A stretch of 64,000 nucleotides of DNA from Sandaracinus sp. GTDB lineage: Bacteria > Myxococcota_A > Polyangia > Polyangiales > Houyiibacteriaceae. The stretch is from NCBI GenBank assembly GCA_002699025.1, contig PABA01000008.1:62001-126000 (forward strand), read 5' to 3'. Under the pieces are notes generated by a model. The model worked only from the letters and a program-made list of their open reading frames with translations. It searched no databases and was not told the origin of the DNA. The position numbers and the translations under genes were made by a program. Below, in pieces: positions 4,279-50,999 of the stretch. Every line of letters starts with the position of its first letter. The stretch's first letter is position 1.

Positions 4279-4611
4279 ATGCCCGAGTTCGAGGACGACA
4301 CCGGCGTCGTCACACGCACCAAGCCGGAGAAGAAGGTCAAGCGACCGCGGCTCTACAAGGTGCTGATGCACAACGACGACTACACGACGCGAGACTTCGT
4401 CGTGTGGGTGCTCCAGACCATCTTCCACAAGAGCGAGAACGACGCCGTCCGCGTGATGCTCCACGTGCATCACAACGGCGTGGGGGTCGCCGGCATCTAC
4501 ACGCGCGAGGTCGCCGAGACGAAGGTCGCGAAGACCGAGCGGCTCGCGCGGGAGAACGAGTACCCGCTGCGGCTCACGATGGAGCCCACCGAGGGCGACG
4601 ACGACGACTGA
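4279..4611 (+). CDS. clpS: ATP-dependent Clp protease adaptor ClpS
   Basis: 110 aa. The core carries ClpS signatures: YKVLMHNDDYTTRDFVVWVL (N-degron-binding region with the conserved NDDYT), then VMLHVHHNGVGVAGIYTREVAETKV. ClpS delivers N-end-rule substrates to ClpAP. The N-terminal extension of about 25 residues is Lys/Glu-rich (KPEKKVKRPR), and the C-terminus ends in an Asp run. The ATG at 4279 is chosen because it precedes the N-terminal extension at normal ClpS length. clpA follows on the same strand after 213 bp, the classical clpS-clpA order. Confidence 0.95.
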   Translation: MPEFEDDTGVVTRTKPEKKVKRPRLYKVLMHNDDYTTRDFVVWVLQTIFHKSENDAVRVMLHVHHNGVGVAGIYTREVAETKVAKTERLARENEYPLRLTMEPTEGDDDD

Positions 4612-4630: not shown

Positions 4631-4660
4631 TTTACATGAACCCGCCCCAGCCACACTGAT
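4631..4660 (+). promoter_or_regulatory. Candidate sigma-70 promoter for clpA
   Basis: TTTACA at 4631-4636 and ACTGAT at 4655-4660 are separated by 18 bp, in a locally AT-richer patch after the clpS stop. Transcription would begin near 4667, exactly where the 25-bp repeats start, placing all repeats in a leader of about 158 nt before clpA. The -10 match is only 3 of 6. Confidence 0.35.
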
Positions 4661-4665
4661 TGTAG

Positions 4666-4775
4666 GAACGGTCCTGCAGGGACCACGAGTGAACGGTCCG
4701 GCACGGACCACGAGTGAACGGTCCGACAGGGACCGCGAATGAACCGACCGGCACGCACCCCCGAGCGAACGGTCC
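4666..4775 (+). repeat. 25-bp tandem repeat with internal dyad, about 4.4 copies, between clpS and clpA
   Basis: Units begin GAACGGTCC at 4666, 4691 and 4716, with a degenerate unit at 4741 (GAACCGACC) and a partial one at 4767. Each of the first three contains GGTCC-N5-GGACC, so each unit can form a small hairpin, followed by ACGAGT or CGCGAAT. The 25-bp period is not a multiple of 3, and no protein is supported here. The hairpin arms are better conserved than the loops (TGCAG, GGCAC, GACAG). Confidence 0.85.
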
Positions 4776-4824
4776 ACGCCGGCACACAGCTGGTCCGCCG
4801 CCGGGCCGCAGACGACGAGACACC

Positions 4825-7140
4825 ATGGCAGGTCCCATCATCGCCAAGGAGCTCCAGGCGACGCTCCGCAAGGCCTTCGACGAGGCGAGCCGCGAGCGCT
4901 TCGAGTACGTCACGCTCGAGCACCTCCTCCTCGCGCTGCTCGACGACCCGAAGGCCCGCAAGGCCCTCCGCGCCTGCGGCGCCGACGTCGACCGGCTCCG
5001 CGAGCGCCTCGAAGACTTCATCCAGGAGCACTCGACCACGGTCCCCGACGGGGTGCCCTTCGAGCCGCAGCAGACGCTCGCCGTCGAGCGCGTGCTCCAG
5101 CGAGCGGCGATCCACGCGATCTCCTCCGAGATGAAGCAGATCGATGGCGGCAACGTGCTCGTGCAGCTCTTCAAGGAGAAGGAGTCGCACGCGGTCTGGC
5201 TGCTCTCCGAGGAGGGCGTCGACCCCTTCGACCTGAAGCAGTACGTCTCCCACGGCGTCCACCCCGACGGCACCTCCGACGCGGACGCGCTGACCTTCCC
5301 CGAGGGCGAGGGCGGCGAGGTCGAGGGCGACGAGGACGAGGAAGGCGGCCGGAAGGACCCGCTCGAGGCCTTCGCGACCGACCTCGTGAAGGAGGCCGCG
5401 GAGGGGCGCATCGACCCGCTCATCGGGCGCGACCTCGAGCTCGAGCGGACCATCCAGGTCCTCTGCCGGCGCCGCAAGAACAACCCGGTCTACGTGGGCG
5501 AGCCCGGCGTGGGCAAGACCGCCATCGCCGAGGGCCTCGCCCTGCGCGTGCACGAGGGCACGGTGCCGGAGGTGCTGAAGGACGCGAAGATCTTCTCCCT
5601 CGACATGGGCGCCCTCCTCGCCGGGACGAAGTTCCGCGGGCAGTTCGAGGAGCGGCTGAAGGCGGTCATGCGCCGCATGCAGGAGCTCGACAACGGCATC
5701 CTCTTCGTCGACGAGATGCACACCATCGTCGGCGCCGGCGCGACGACCGGCTCGTCCATGGACGCCTCGAACATCCTCAAGCCGGCGCTCGCGAGCGGGA
5801 AGCTCCGCTGCATCGGCTCGACGACCTTCACCGAGTACAAGCACGTGGAGCGCGACCGGGCGCTCGCGCGGCGGCTCCAGAAGATCGAGGTGCTCGAGCC
5901 GAGTGAGGACGAGACGCTGCAGATCCTCCAGGGGCTCCGGGGGCGCTACGAGGAGCACCACGACGTGAAGTACGACGACGATGCGCTCGAGGCGGCCGTG
6001 AAGCTCGCCGCGAAGCACATCGTCGAGCGCTTCCTGCCGGACAAGGCCATCGACGTGATCGACGAGGCCGGCGCCGCCGACCGCATGAAGGACGAAGGGG
6101 AGCGGACGCATCGGGTGACGGCCGCGGACGTGGAGCGCGTCGTGAGCAAGATGGCGCGCGTCCCGGTGGAGGCCGTGACCGCCAAGGAGCGGGACCAGCT
6201 CGCCGACCTCGAGCCGCGCCTGAAGAAGCAGATCTACGGCCAGGACGAGGCCGTCGGCATGGTCTGCGACGCCATCACGCTGAGCCGCGCCGGCCTCCGC
6301 GCCGACCGAAAGCCGATCGGCTCGTTCCTCTTCGCCGGGCCCACGGGCGTCGGCAAGACCGAGCTCGCGCGGCAGCTCGCCTCGGCCATGGGCGTGGAGC
6401 TCCACCGCTTCGACATGAGCGAGTACGGCGAGCGCCACAGCGTGTCGCGGCTGATCGGCGCGCCCCCCGGCTACGTGGGCTTCGACCAGGGCGGGCTCCT
6501 CACGGACGCCGTGCGCAAGCACCCGCACTCGGTCGTCGTGCTCGACGAGATCGAGAAGGCGCACCCGGAGCTGTTCAACATCCTGCTCCAGGTCATGGAC
6601 AACGCGAAGCTCACGGACAACAACGGCCGCGAGGCGGACTTCCGGAACGTCGTGCTGATCATGACGACGAACGCCGGCGCCTTCGAGGCGGCCGAGCGAG
6701 TCGTGGGCTTCGGCGCGAGCGACGACGCGAAGGTGAAGGACGCCCAGCGGAGCAAGTCGAAGGCGGCCATCGAGCGGATGTTCACGCCCGAGTTCCGCAA
6801 CCGGCTGGACGCCGTGGTCTTCTTCGCCGGGCTCGGCCCGGAGGTGATCCGCAAGGTGGTCGACAAGGAGGTCGGTCTGCTCGCGGAGCTCCTCGAGGAG
6901 AAGGACGTGCGCGTGGAGCTCGGCGAGGGCGCGCGGGAGTGGCTGGCGCGGCACGGCTACGACGCGAAGATGGGCGCCCGGCCCATGGCGCGGCTCGTCG
7001 AGCGGGAGCTGAAGAAGCCGATCGCCAAGGCGATGGTCTTCGGGGAGCTGGTCGACGGAGGCGTCGTCACGGTGGAGCTCGAGGGCGACGCCGAGGACGG
7101 GACGCTGAAGCTGACCTACGGTCCGCGCGTCGAGGCGTAG
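4825..7140 (+). CDS. clpA: ATP-dependent Clp protease ATP-binding subunit ClpA
   Basis: 771 aa, normal for ClpA. The N-terminal Clp-N domain ([19 protein letters not shown]) is followed by an acidic linker near residues 150-180. AAA-1 has Walker [14 protein letters not shown] near 228; AAA-2 has [13 protein letters not shown] near 505, then [16 protein letters not shown] and the D2-small domain ending in [11 protein letters not shown]. The loop normally carrying the ClpP-docking IGL/IGF tripeptide reads VVGFG. There is no ClpB-type middle coiled coil. The ATG at 4825 begins directly at the N-domain. ClpA unfolds substrates for ClpP, with ClpS as adaptor; no clpP is in this window. Confidence 0.96.
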
Positions 7141-39874: not shown

Positions 39875-41473
39875 TCACTCCTCTTCGTCGCGGCCTCGGC
39901 CGCGGGCGTCGGTCTCGGCGTCGGGGTCGGTCTCGGCGTCTTCCGCGTCGAGCTCGTCCTCGGCATCGTCCGGGTCGGCATCGTCCGGGTCGGCGTCGTC
40001 CGGGTCGGCGTCGTCCGGGTCGGCGTCGTCCGGGTCGGCGTCGTCCCCCTCGTCTTCGGGGCCGTCCGCGTCGCGCTCGTGCTCGCCCTGGTCCTCGCTC
40101 GGATCGTCGCTCGGGTCGTCGGGGCCGCCCTCGGCCACCTCGTCCTCGCCGGAGGGGGACTCCTCACCCTCCACGCCCTCGCGCTCCTCGTCGTCTTCCT
40201 CGTCCTCGCCGTCGAACATCTCCGACGCCGCGTCCGCCTCCGCGGCGGCGGCCTGCGCGTCGATGCTCTTGAGATCCAGGGGCTCGCCCATGCGCTTCTC
40301 GAAGATGCCGCGGCTCTCGTCCGAGAGCTCGCTGAACTCCTGCAGCGTCGGGAGGTCCTTCAGGCTCTTCATGCCGAAGAACTCGAGGAAGTGGGGCGTC
40401 GTGCCGTAGAGGAGCGGGCGGCCGGGCTCGTCCTTGCGGCCGAGCACCTTGAGCAGGTTGCGCTCCGTGAGGACCTTGAGGGCCGAGCCCGAGTCGACGC
40501 CGCGGATGTCGTCGATCTCCGGGCGGGTGACGGGCTGGCGGTAGGCGACGATGGCGAGGGTCTCCGTCTGCGCGCGGGTGAGGCGCACCGGGCGGCGCGA
40601 AACGAACTCGCGGACGAAGGGGGCGCTCGAGACGGCCGAGCGGAATTGGTAGCCGCCGCTGACCTCCACCAGGTGGATGCCGCGCTCGGCGTAGTCGGCC
40701 GTGAGCTCCTCGAGGAGGGGGCGGACCTCCTTCACCCGGGACTTGGCGGCGCGGGCGAGCTGGCGGGCCGTGACGGGCTTGTCGGCGACGAAGATCAGGC
40801 TCTCGAGGACGCTCTTGAGATGCGCCTCGTGGACGGCGACGGACTTCTCGAGGCCGGGGCGCTGGGCGTCGTCGGAGCCGGGCGGGAGCGGCTCCTCTTC
40901 GTCCTCGTCGTCGTCGCCCGCGTCGTCGTCGCCCGCGTCGTCGCCCGCGTCCGCGTCATCGACGTCCGCTTCCGCGTCGTCGTCGTCCGCGTCGCTGGCG
41001 TCCGCGTCTTCGTCGGCGTCCGCGTCATCGCCGTCCGCTTCCGCGTCGTCGTCATCGCCCGCGTCGCTGGCGTCCGCGTCATCGCCGTCCGCTTCCGCGT
41101 CGTCGTCGGCGTCCGCGTCCGCGTCATCGCCGTCCGCTTCCGCGTCGTCGTCGTCCGCGTCGCTGGCGTCCGCGTCGCTGGCGTCCGCGTCGCTGGCGTC
41201 CGCGTCGTTGGCGTCCGCGTCATCGCCGTCCGCTTCCGCGTCAGCATCTTCACCGGGCTCCGCGTCGTCGTCGGCGTCCGCTTCCGCGTCGGCCTCGTCG
41301 TCGGCTTCGGCTTCGGCATCCGCTTCCGCGTCGCCTTGGTCGTTCGCGTCGCCATCCTCCGTGGGCGCGTCGTCGGGCTCGGCCGCGGGCTCCCCCGTCT
41401 CCGCGTCTTCGTCGCGCGGATCGGGCAGCTCGCTCTCGTCGGGCGTCGCCTCGTCGTGGATCGACTCGCTCAC
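39875..41473 (-). CDS. scpB: Segregation and condensation protein B with giant acidic extensions
   Basis: 532 aa, against roughly 200 for typical ScpB. The winged-helix core lies at about 208-390: [80 protein letters not shown] and [17 protein letters not shown]. Residues 1-~205 are almost only Asp, Ala and Glu, encoded by short GC-rich tandem repeats (DADD, DASDA units). The C-terminal ~140 residues are again acidic, with five DADPD repeats. ScpB with ScpA and SMC compacts and segregates the chromosome. GTG start overlaps the scpA stop (GTGA). Confidence 0.93.
39961..40046. repeat. 15-bp minisatellite in the scpB 3' part
   Basis: Five full copies of CGGCRTCGTCCGGGT (39961-40035) and an 11-bp partial copy lie in tandem, differing only at one A/G position. 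In the scpB frame this encodes repeated DADPD. Near-identity between units implies recent expansion or active slippage. Confidence 0.9.
40895..41330. repeat. Complex acidic-coding minisatellite in the scpB 5' part
   Basis: About 430 bp built from GCGTCC, GCGTCGTCGTC and TCATCGCCGTCCGCTTCCGC blocks. The last block recurs four times (near 41026, 41080, 41124 and 41221). CGCTGGCGTCCGCGT recurs three times, plus one CGTTGG variant (41161-41220). It encodes Asp/Ala/Glu-only sequence at the ScpB N-terminus. All units preserve the reading frame. Confidence 0.85.
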
Positions 41474-50663: not shown

Positions 50664-50999
50664 CGCTCGCTTCGCTCGCGGCTCTCCGCCGTCCGCTTTC
50701 CGCCGTCCGCTTTCCGCCATCCGCTTTCCGCCATCCGTCCGGGCGGCGAGCTGCCGCGGCGGCGGCCGCGTTCGCGGAGAGCGGTGAGTCGGCTCGCGGC
50801 GCCCCCTGGCTCGACCGCCTCTCTCGACCGTTTCGCTCCGGCTGGCGTCCTTCGCCCCGGCCCACGCAGGGCGCGGTGGGGACGGCGCGTCGTCGCCGTG
50901 TGACTCCGCGAACACGCCGCGCGGCGGAGAGTCGGTCGTGGGCGGGCGCGCCGCCAGCTCCCGCGTGGCCTGGTTGCGCGTGCGTGGTACACCCGGCGC
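50664..50999. other. Intergenic region with 14-bp tandem repeat, no gene supported
   Basis: CCGCTTTCCGCCRT units repeat in tandem between about 50686 and 50738 (roughly 3.5 copies, two with GT and two with AT endings). The rest, to the ileS start, shows only the TACACC hexamer at 50988-50993, 6 nt before the ATG. Confidence 0.6.

Follow-up and report, generated by a model that had tools for sequence, protein, structure and literature searches.

The window, the whole 64,000-nucleotide stretch of Sandaracinus sp. DNA that was analysed, carries the genes clpS and clpA on the same strand, separated by a spacer of 213 nt. Within this spacer, a tandem array of a self-complementary 25-bp unit lies between a probable promoter and the clpA start codon. 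The features of the junction are as follows.

4279-4611, + strand: clpS, adaptor of the Clp protease (Pfam PF02617, E 4e-33)
4631-4636, + strand: TTTACA, probable -35 element of the clpA promoter, a box also found in relatives
4654-4659, + strand: CACTGA, tentative -10 element at a spacing of N17, weak and from an alignment chosen after the fact
4666-4690, + strand: repeat unit 1, GAACGGTCC-TGCAG-GGACCACGAGT, exact GGTCC-N5-GGACC
4691-4715, + strand: repeat unit 2, GAACGGTCC-GGCAC-GGACCACGAGT, exact GGTCC-N5-GGACC
4716-4740, + strand: repeat unit 3, GAACGGTCC-GACAG-GGACCGCGAAT, exact GGTCC-N5-GGACC
4741-4766, + strand: degenerate unit 4 of 26 nt, with the loop of unit 2 and three of five arm pairs broken
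4767-4775, + strand: half unit 5, left arm only (GAACGGTCC)
4825-7140, + strand: clpA, AAA+ unfoldase (Pfam domains Clp_N, AAA_2 and ClpB_D2-small)

TRF delimited the tandem repeat at 4666-4775 with a period of 25, 4.4 copies and a score of 134, and gave the same interval a higher score, 150, at a period of 50 (2.2 copies). Units 1 to 3 are contiguous. Both TRF and our reading of the individual units agreed with the earlier note, which had described three well-kept 25-bp units with GGTCC-N5-GGACC together with degenerate copies. The span that the note had assigned to the array (4631-4824) does contain a real repeat, but its first 35 nt and last 49 nt are non-repeat sequence. With several head-to-tail copies, beyond chance, of a unit in the range of approximately 10 to 100 bp, the array is a minisatellite by definition; its copy number may be wrong, the assembly being a draft of 238 contigs. 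The start codon of clpA was assigned to ATG 4825, which aligns with the ClpA starts of relatives (mostly MAGP). An in-frame upstream GTG at 4714 was also considered as a start and was ruled out by the match of the relatives' ClpA starts to the downstream ATG.

A search of 38 genomes recovered ClpS from every one, and clpS and clpA were adjacent in each of the 29 relatives whose junction was extracted. The spacers of these relatives measured 0 to 158 nt, compared with 213 nt in the window, and the 29 junctions are not independent, given that some family genomes with spacers of 1 to 3 nt share one genus and that those from outside the family are less closely related. The repeat was absent from all 29 spacers, none of which comes from the source genus, and TRF detected no comparable array in them. 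Absence from related clpS-clpA spacers is one of the outcomes that the earlier note had itself named as refuting its proposal. A search for two neighbouring GGTCC-N5-GGACC units returned 64 scattered stretches among 84,980 species genomes, none of which adjoins clpS-clpA, the only trace being a weak 23% AAA-type match at one locus; in viral contigs such a pair of units gave one match, which was unrelated. Outside the source genome, a family-wide search that allowed up to 3 mismatches yielded only background-like matches. Literature searches on clpA promoters, on leaderless genes of Myxococcus and on tandem repeats of Sandaracinus turned up nothing directly relevant.

The box upstream of the array recurs in relatives. 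Ahead of clpA, the spacers of G007, G015 and G008 contain TTTACA and that of G016 contains TTTACC. In these four relatives, which represent three genera (loci L023, L024, L027 and L030), the box begins 37 to 40 nt upstream of the ATG, compared with 194 nt (position 4631) in the window. The hexamer is very rare in the source genome, with 13 occurrences on both strands of 2.38 Mb. We thus identified in the family a conserved clpA promoter box, with TTTACA probably serving as the -35 element. The promoter proposed in the earlier note, TTTACA-N18-ACTGAT, gained support for its upstream half, whereas ACTGAT is a weak -10 element and CACTGA at N17 fits the relatives better: the hexamers at this spacing are CACTGA, CATCTC, TACACA, CAAGAA and CATGAG, with A at the second place in all five sequences as read by eye. 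Scans with sigma-70 and terminator consensus sequences found neither.

If the box is the -35 element, transcription would probably start approximately 36 nt after its first base, at about position 4667, which falls in the first bases of the array. The placement of the array at the start of transcription, as previously proposed, is therefore probably accurate to one or two bases, given the conservation of TTTACA, and the array would probably make up most of a transcribed leader of approximately 159 nt. In the relatives the predicted start lies 1 to 4 nt before the ATG, which suggests an almost leaderless clpA messenger. Because the box is 37 to 40 nt from the ATG in the relatives and 194 nt from it in the window, it appears that the array expanded in the interval separating the clpA start codon from an ancestral promoter that gave almost no leader. 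The description of the array as a probable clpA leader accordingly gains backing for its position from the box in relatives, whereas the accompanying idea of selection, whether for pairing or for the site of a dimeric protein, is unsupported.

Within the source genome the array stands alone. BLAST against the whole 9.24-Mb assembly returned the array itself, all other matches having E values of at least 0.5, and the exact motif ACGGTCC-N5-GGACC occurs three times in the genome, each time inside the array. Tandem repeats as such are common: 270 arrays were detected in the 2.38 Mb (of 9.24 Mb) covered by these statistics, and in 87 of these arrays the period is not a multiple of 3. Arrays of such non-triplet period occur at approximately one per 27 kb, a density that is probably somewhat overestimated, given that the sample contains many contig starts and is repeat-enriched, assemblies tending to break at repeats. 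Hairpin-forming units were not enriched among the 87 arrays (3 at p <= 0.05, with about 4 expected), and the mean stem was 3.64 in these arrays and 3.60 for shuffled units. The clpA array ranked second among the 87 for its hairpin; this rank can be explained by picking the best-looking of many arrays, although that list was not the source from which the clpA array had been selected. The window also holds a second non-triplet array at 50681-50737 (14 bp, 4.1 copies, GCTTTCCGCCATCC), as well as long low-complexity repeats of coding type at 40899-41243 and 39933-40121, whose periods are divisible by 3.

The distribution of differences among the units fails to bear out the claim that the arms are conserved while the loops vary, which draws on three copies. 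Units 1 to 3 differ at five columns, and none of these is among the ten columns of the arms (hypergeometric P = 0.057). Compared with unit 2, unit 4 differs at three positions in the arms and at none in the loop, and these differences give C-C, A-A and C-C, each of which breaks a pair. The loops of units 2 and 4 are identical, and those of units 1 and 3 are alike at the loop end. Together with the preference of TRF for a period of 50, this alternating pattern indicates that the loop differences largely record the duplication of a 50-bp dimer. Given that loop variation is mostly such a record and that unit 4 breaks pairs, the evidence for selective pressure on pairing is weak. With regard to hairpin quality, the 5-bp stem of unit 1 was equalled in 12% of shuffled units of the same composition, and the 6-bp stems of units 2 and 3 were equalled in 3% and 2%, respectively (p 0.015-0.03), whereas the stems of units 4 and 5 showed nothing unusual against such shuffles. 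In the degenerate units, pairing was lost without compensation.

We consider it likely that the array is a species-specific minisatellite with incidentally self-complementary arms and no selected switch; it appears to belong with the hundreds of other tandem repeats that have built up in the source genome, and not to be a regulatory device kept by conservation. Tandem duplication, first of a 25-bp unit and later of two units together (50 bp), would have taken place just downstream of the clpA promoter, with replication slippage or unequal recombination as the mechanism suggested by the tandem structure and the dimer pattern. Such growth would have moved the start codon approximately 155 nt further from the conserved TTTACA box. 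The self-complementary arms would most likely have been incidental to the seed unit and copied along with it, and any effect on clpA expression would then be a by-product. Speaking against the minisatellite explanation are the hairpins of units 2 and 3, which are better than those of most shuffled units, the untouched arms of three copies at the borderline P value given above, and the start of the array exactly at the predicted start of transcription, which would have to be a coincidence.

That same coincidence is what recommends a functional RNA leader, with hairpins that tune clpA translation or messenger stability relative to clpS, as does the invariance of the arms in units 1 to 3. In the predicted leader the hairpins of units 1 and 3 formed with a probability of at least 0.99, and in one folding window codons 3 and 4 of clpA (GGTCCC) paired with GGGACC of unit 1 at a probability of 0.61. 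This pairing, which would bury the start codon, disappeared when 30 more bases were folded and was set aside as window-dependent; unit 2 did not form its own hairpin and paired elsewhere. The RNA folding that had been suggested as a check predicted two hairpins, but the sequence from 4655 to 4830, which folds at -69 kcal/mol, gave a z score of -1.15 against dinucleotide shuffles, and the predicted leader as a whole is therefore unremarkable, its modelled fold being no better than that of shuffled sequence. For a conserved cis-regulatory RNA, a homologue was lacking in all 29 relatives examined, no Rfam family came near threshold, and the pairs of unit 4 are broken without compensation. We regard a functional leader as unlikely. 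A related idea, to which we give little credence, is that minisatellite growth at the start of a near-leaderless clpA has produced a multi-hairpin leader whose copy number sets the output of ClpA against that of ClpS in the manner of a tandem-repeat rheostat. If copy number were variable and altered ClpA levels, this would be a rare case of tandem-repeat control on a protein quality-control gene.

The alternative of an operator array supposes that a putative dimeric regulator acting on clpA would bind GGTCC-N5-GGACC as its dyad. The dyad is perfect in three units and lies beside the probable promoter. An operator would be expected at other promoters of the genome, however, and the exact sites are confined to the clpA array; the 29 related spacers are without it, and a 5-bp stem arises by chance in approximately 12% of shuffles of a 25-bp unit this rich in GC. 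A period of 25 corresponds to about 2.4 helical turns, which would place neighbouring sites on different faces of the helix. A regulator dedicated to clpA alone and acting at the dyad may be compatible with sites at a single locus, but we judge the operator explanation very unlikely. Neither kind of selection put forward in the earlier note, for pairing or for the site of a dimeric protein, found backing: no related spacer contains the repeat, no exact copy of the dyad lies elsewhere in the genome, and the degenerate units have lost pairs.

As a minisatellite, the array resembles bacterial intergenic minisatellites and VNTR loci (PMC3899988) in its head-to-tail units, decaying outer copies, lineage specificity and position near a promoter. 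Known tandem-repeat cases affect expression by altering how many binding sites there are or how far apart the promoter elements lie. The switching cases named mostly have very short units (TAAA, TA, poly-G), located inside promoters or upstream of them (PMC3899988), whereas the clpA unit is 25 bp long, lies downstream of the predicted promoter and is known here from the copy number of one genome. BrickBuilt of Porphyromonas gingivalis, a minisatellite within a MITE (PMC4596501), is likewise intergenic with a short tandem unit (23 nt), but has 19 occurrences, with leader and tail subunits carrying small inverted ends; the clpA array occupies a single locus, and no flanking inverted ends were found. 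REP and REPIN extragenic palindromes (PMC2817692, PMC3116915, PMC3733652) are also short, palindromic and intergenic but are dispersed in high copy number, whereas the clpA unit is confined to one locus of the 9.24-Mb genome and not spread over many intergenic places as REP or BIME elements are. The locus illustrates how growth of a minisatellite can give a long structured leader to a gene that probably had none. It also cautions that when a GC-rich unit is repeated, any hairpin within it is multiplied as well, and is by itself no sign of selection. Beyond the source genome, the clpA array matters little as it stands.

More notable than the clpA array is a family of tandem arrays dispersed over the genome, in which the palindromic core GTCCGCAGGAC recurs every 21 to 24 bp with linkers of 10 to 13 nt; this family is closer to BrickBuilt than the clpA array is. 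Its exact junctions number 326 in the source genome, whereas 183 other genomes of the order contain none; the 2.38-Mb sample contained 19 array segments with 135 units (for example, L208:16273-16560, L225:15862-16060, L202:342-600, L255:5368-5600 and L237:9775-9930). Adjacent units differ at 3.9% of core and 9.2% of linker positions, and linkers vary from array to array with the core constant. Descent of the clpA array from this family as a diverged member, sharing whatever spreads the family, appears improbable to us. The two have a common plan of GTCC-loop-GGAC with a 12-nt linker (23 = 4 + 3 + 4 + 12, compared with 25 = 4 + 5 + 4 + 12 for clpA), and the loop centre is GCA in two of the three clpA units. 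The exact core is nevertheless absent from the clpA array and the whole window, no core within one mismatch was found in the clpA array, and the linkers differ. Local alignment to the array at L237:9777 gave a z score of 2.25, which several unrelated arrays equalled or exceeded (up to 4.4), so that the plan is suggestive but the alignment is not significant, and kinship was not accepted.

Two further repeats of the genome were observed. A dispersed element with the inverted ends ACGGGCCCCGCGGGACC and its complement, approximately 115 bp apart and flanked by GGGGGGAGGGG, has close to 20 end copies, some of them at contig ends (L165:1440-1680, L166 and L184:1440-1680; ends of contigs C91, C99, C118 and C225). 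Contig C166 (L136:13031-20000 and L137:1-3830) carries a long CRISPR-like array of roughly 10 kb, with a repeat of approximately GGTTCATCCCCGCGCGTGCGGGGGAGCC every 61 bp.
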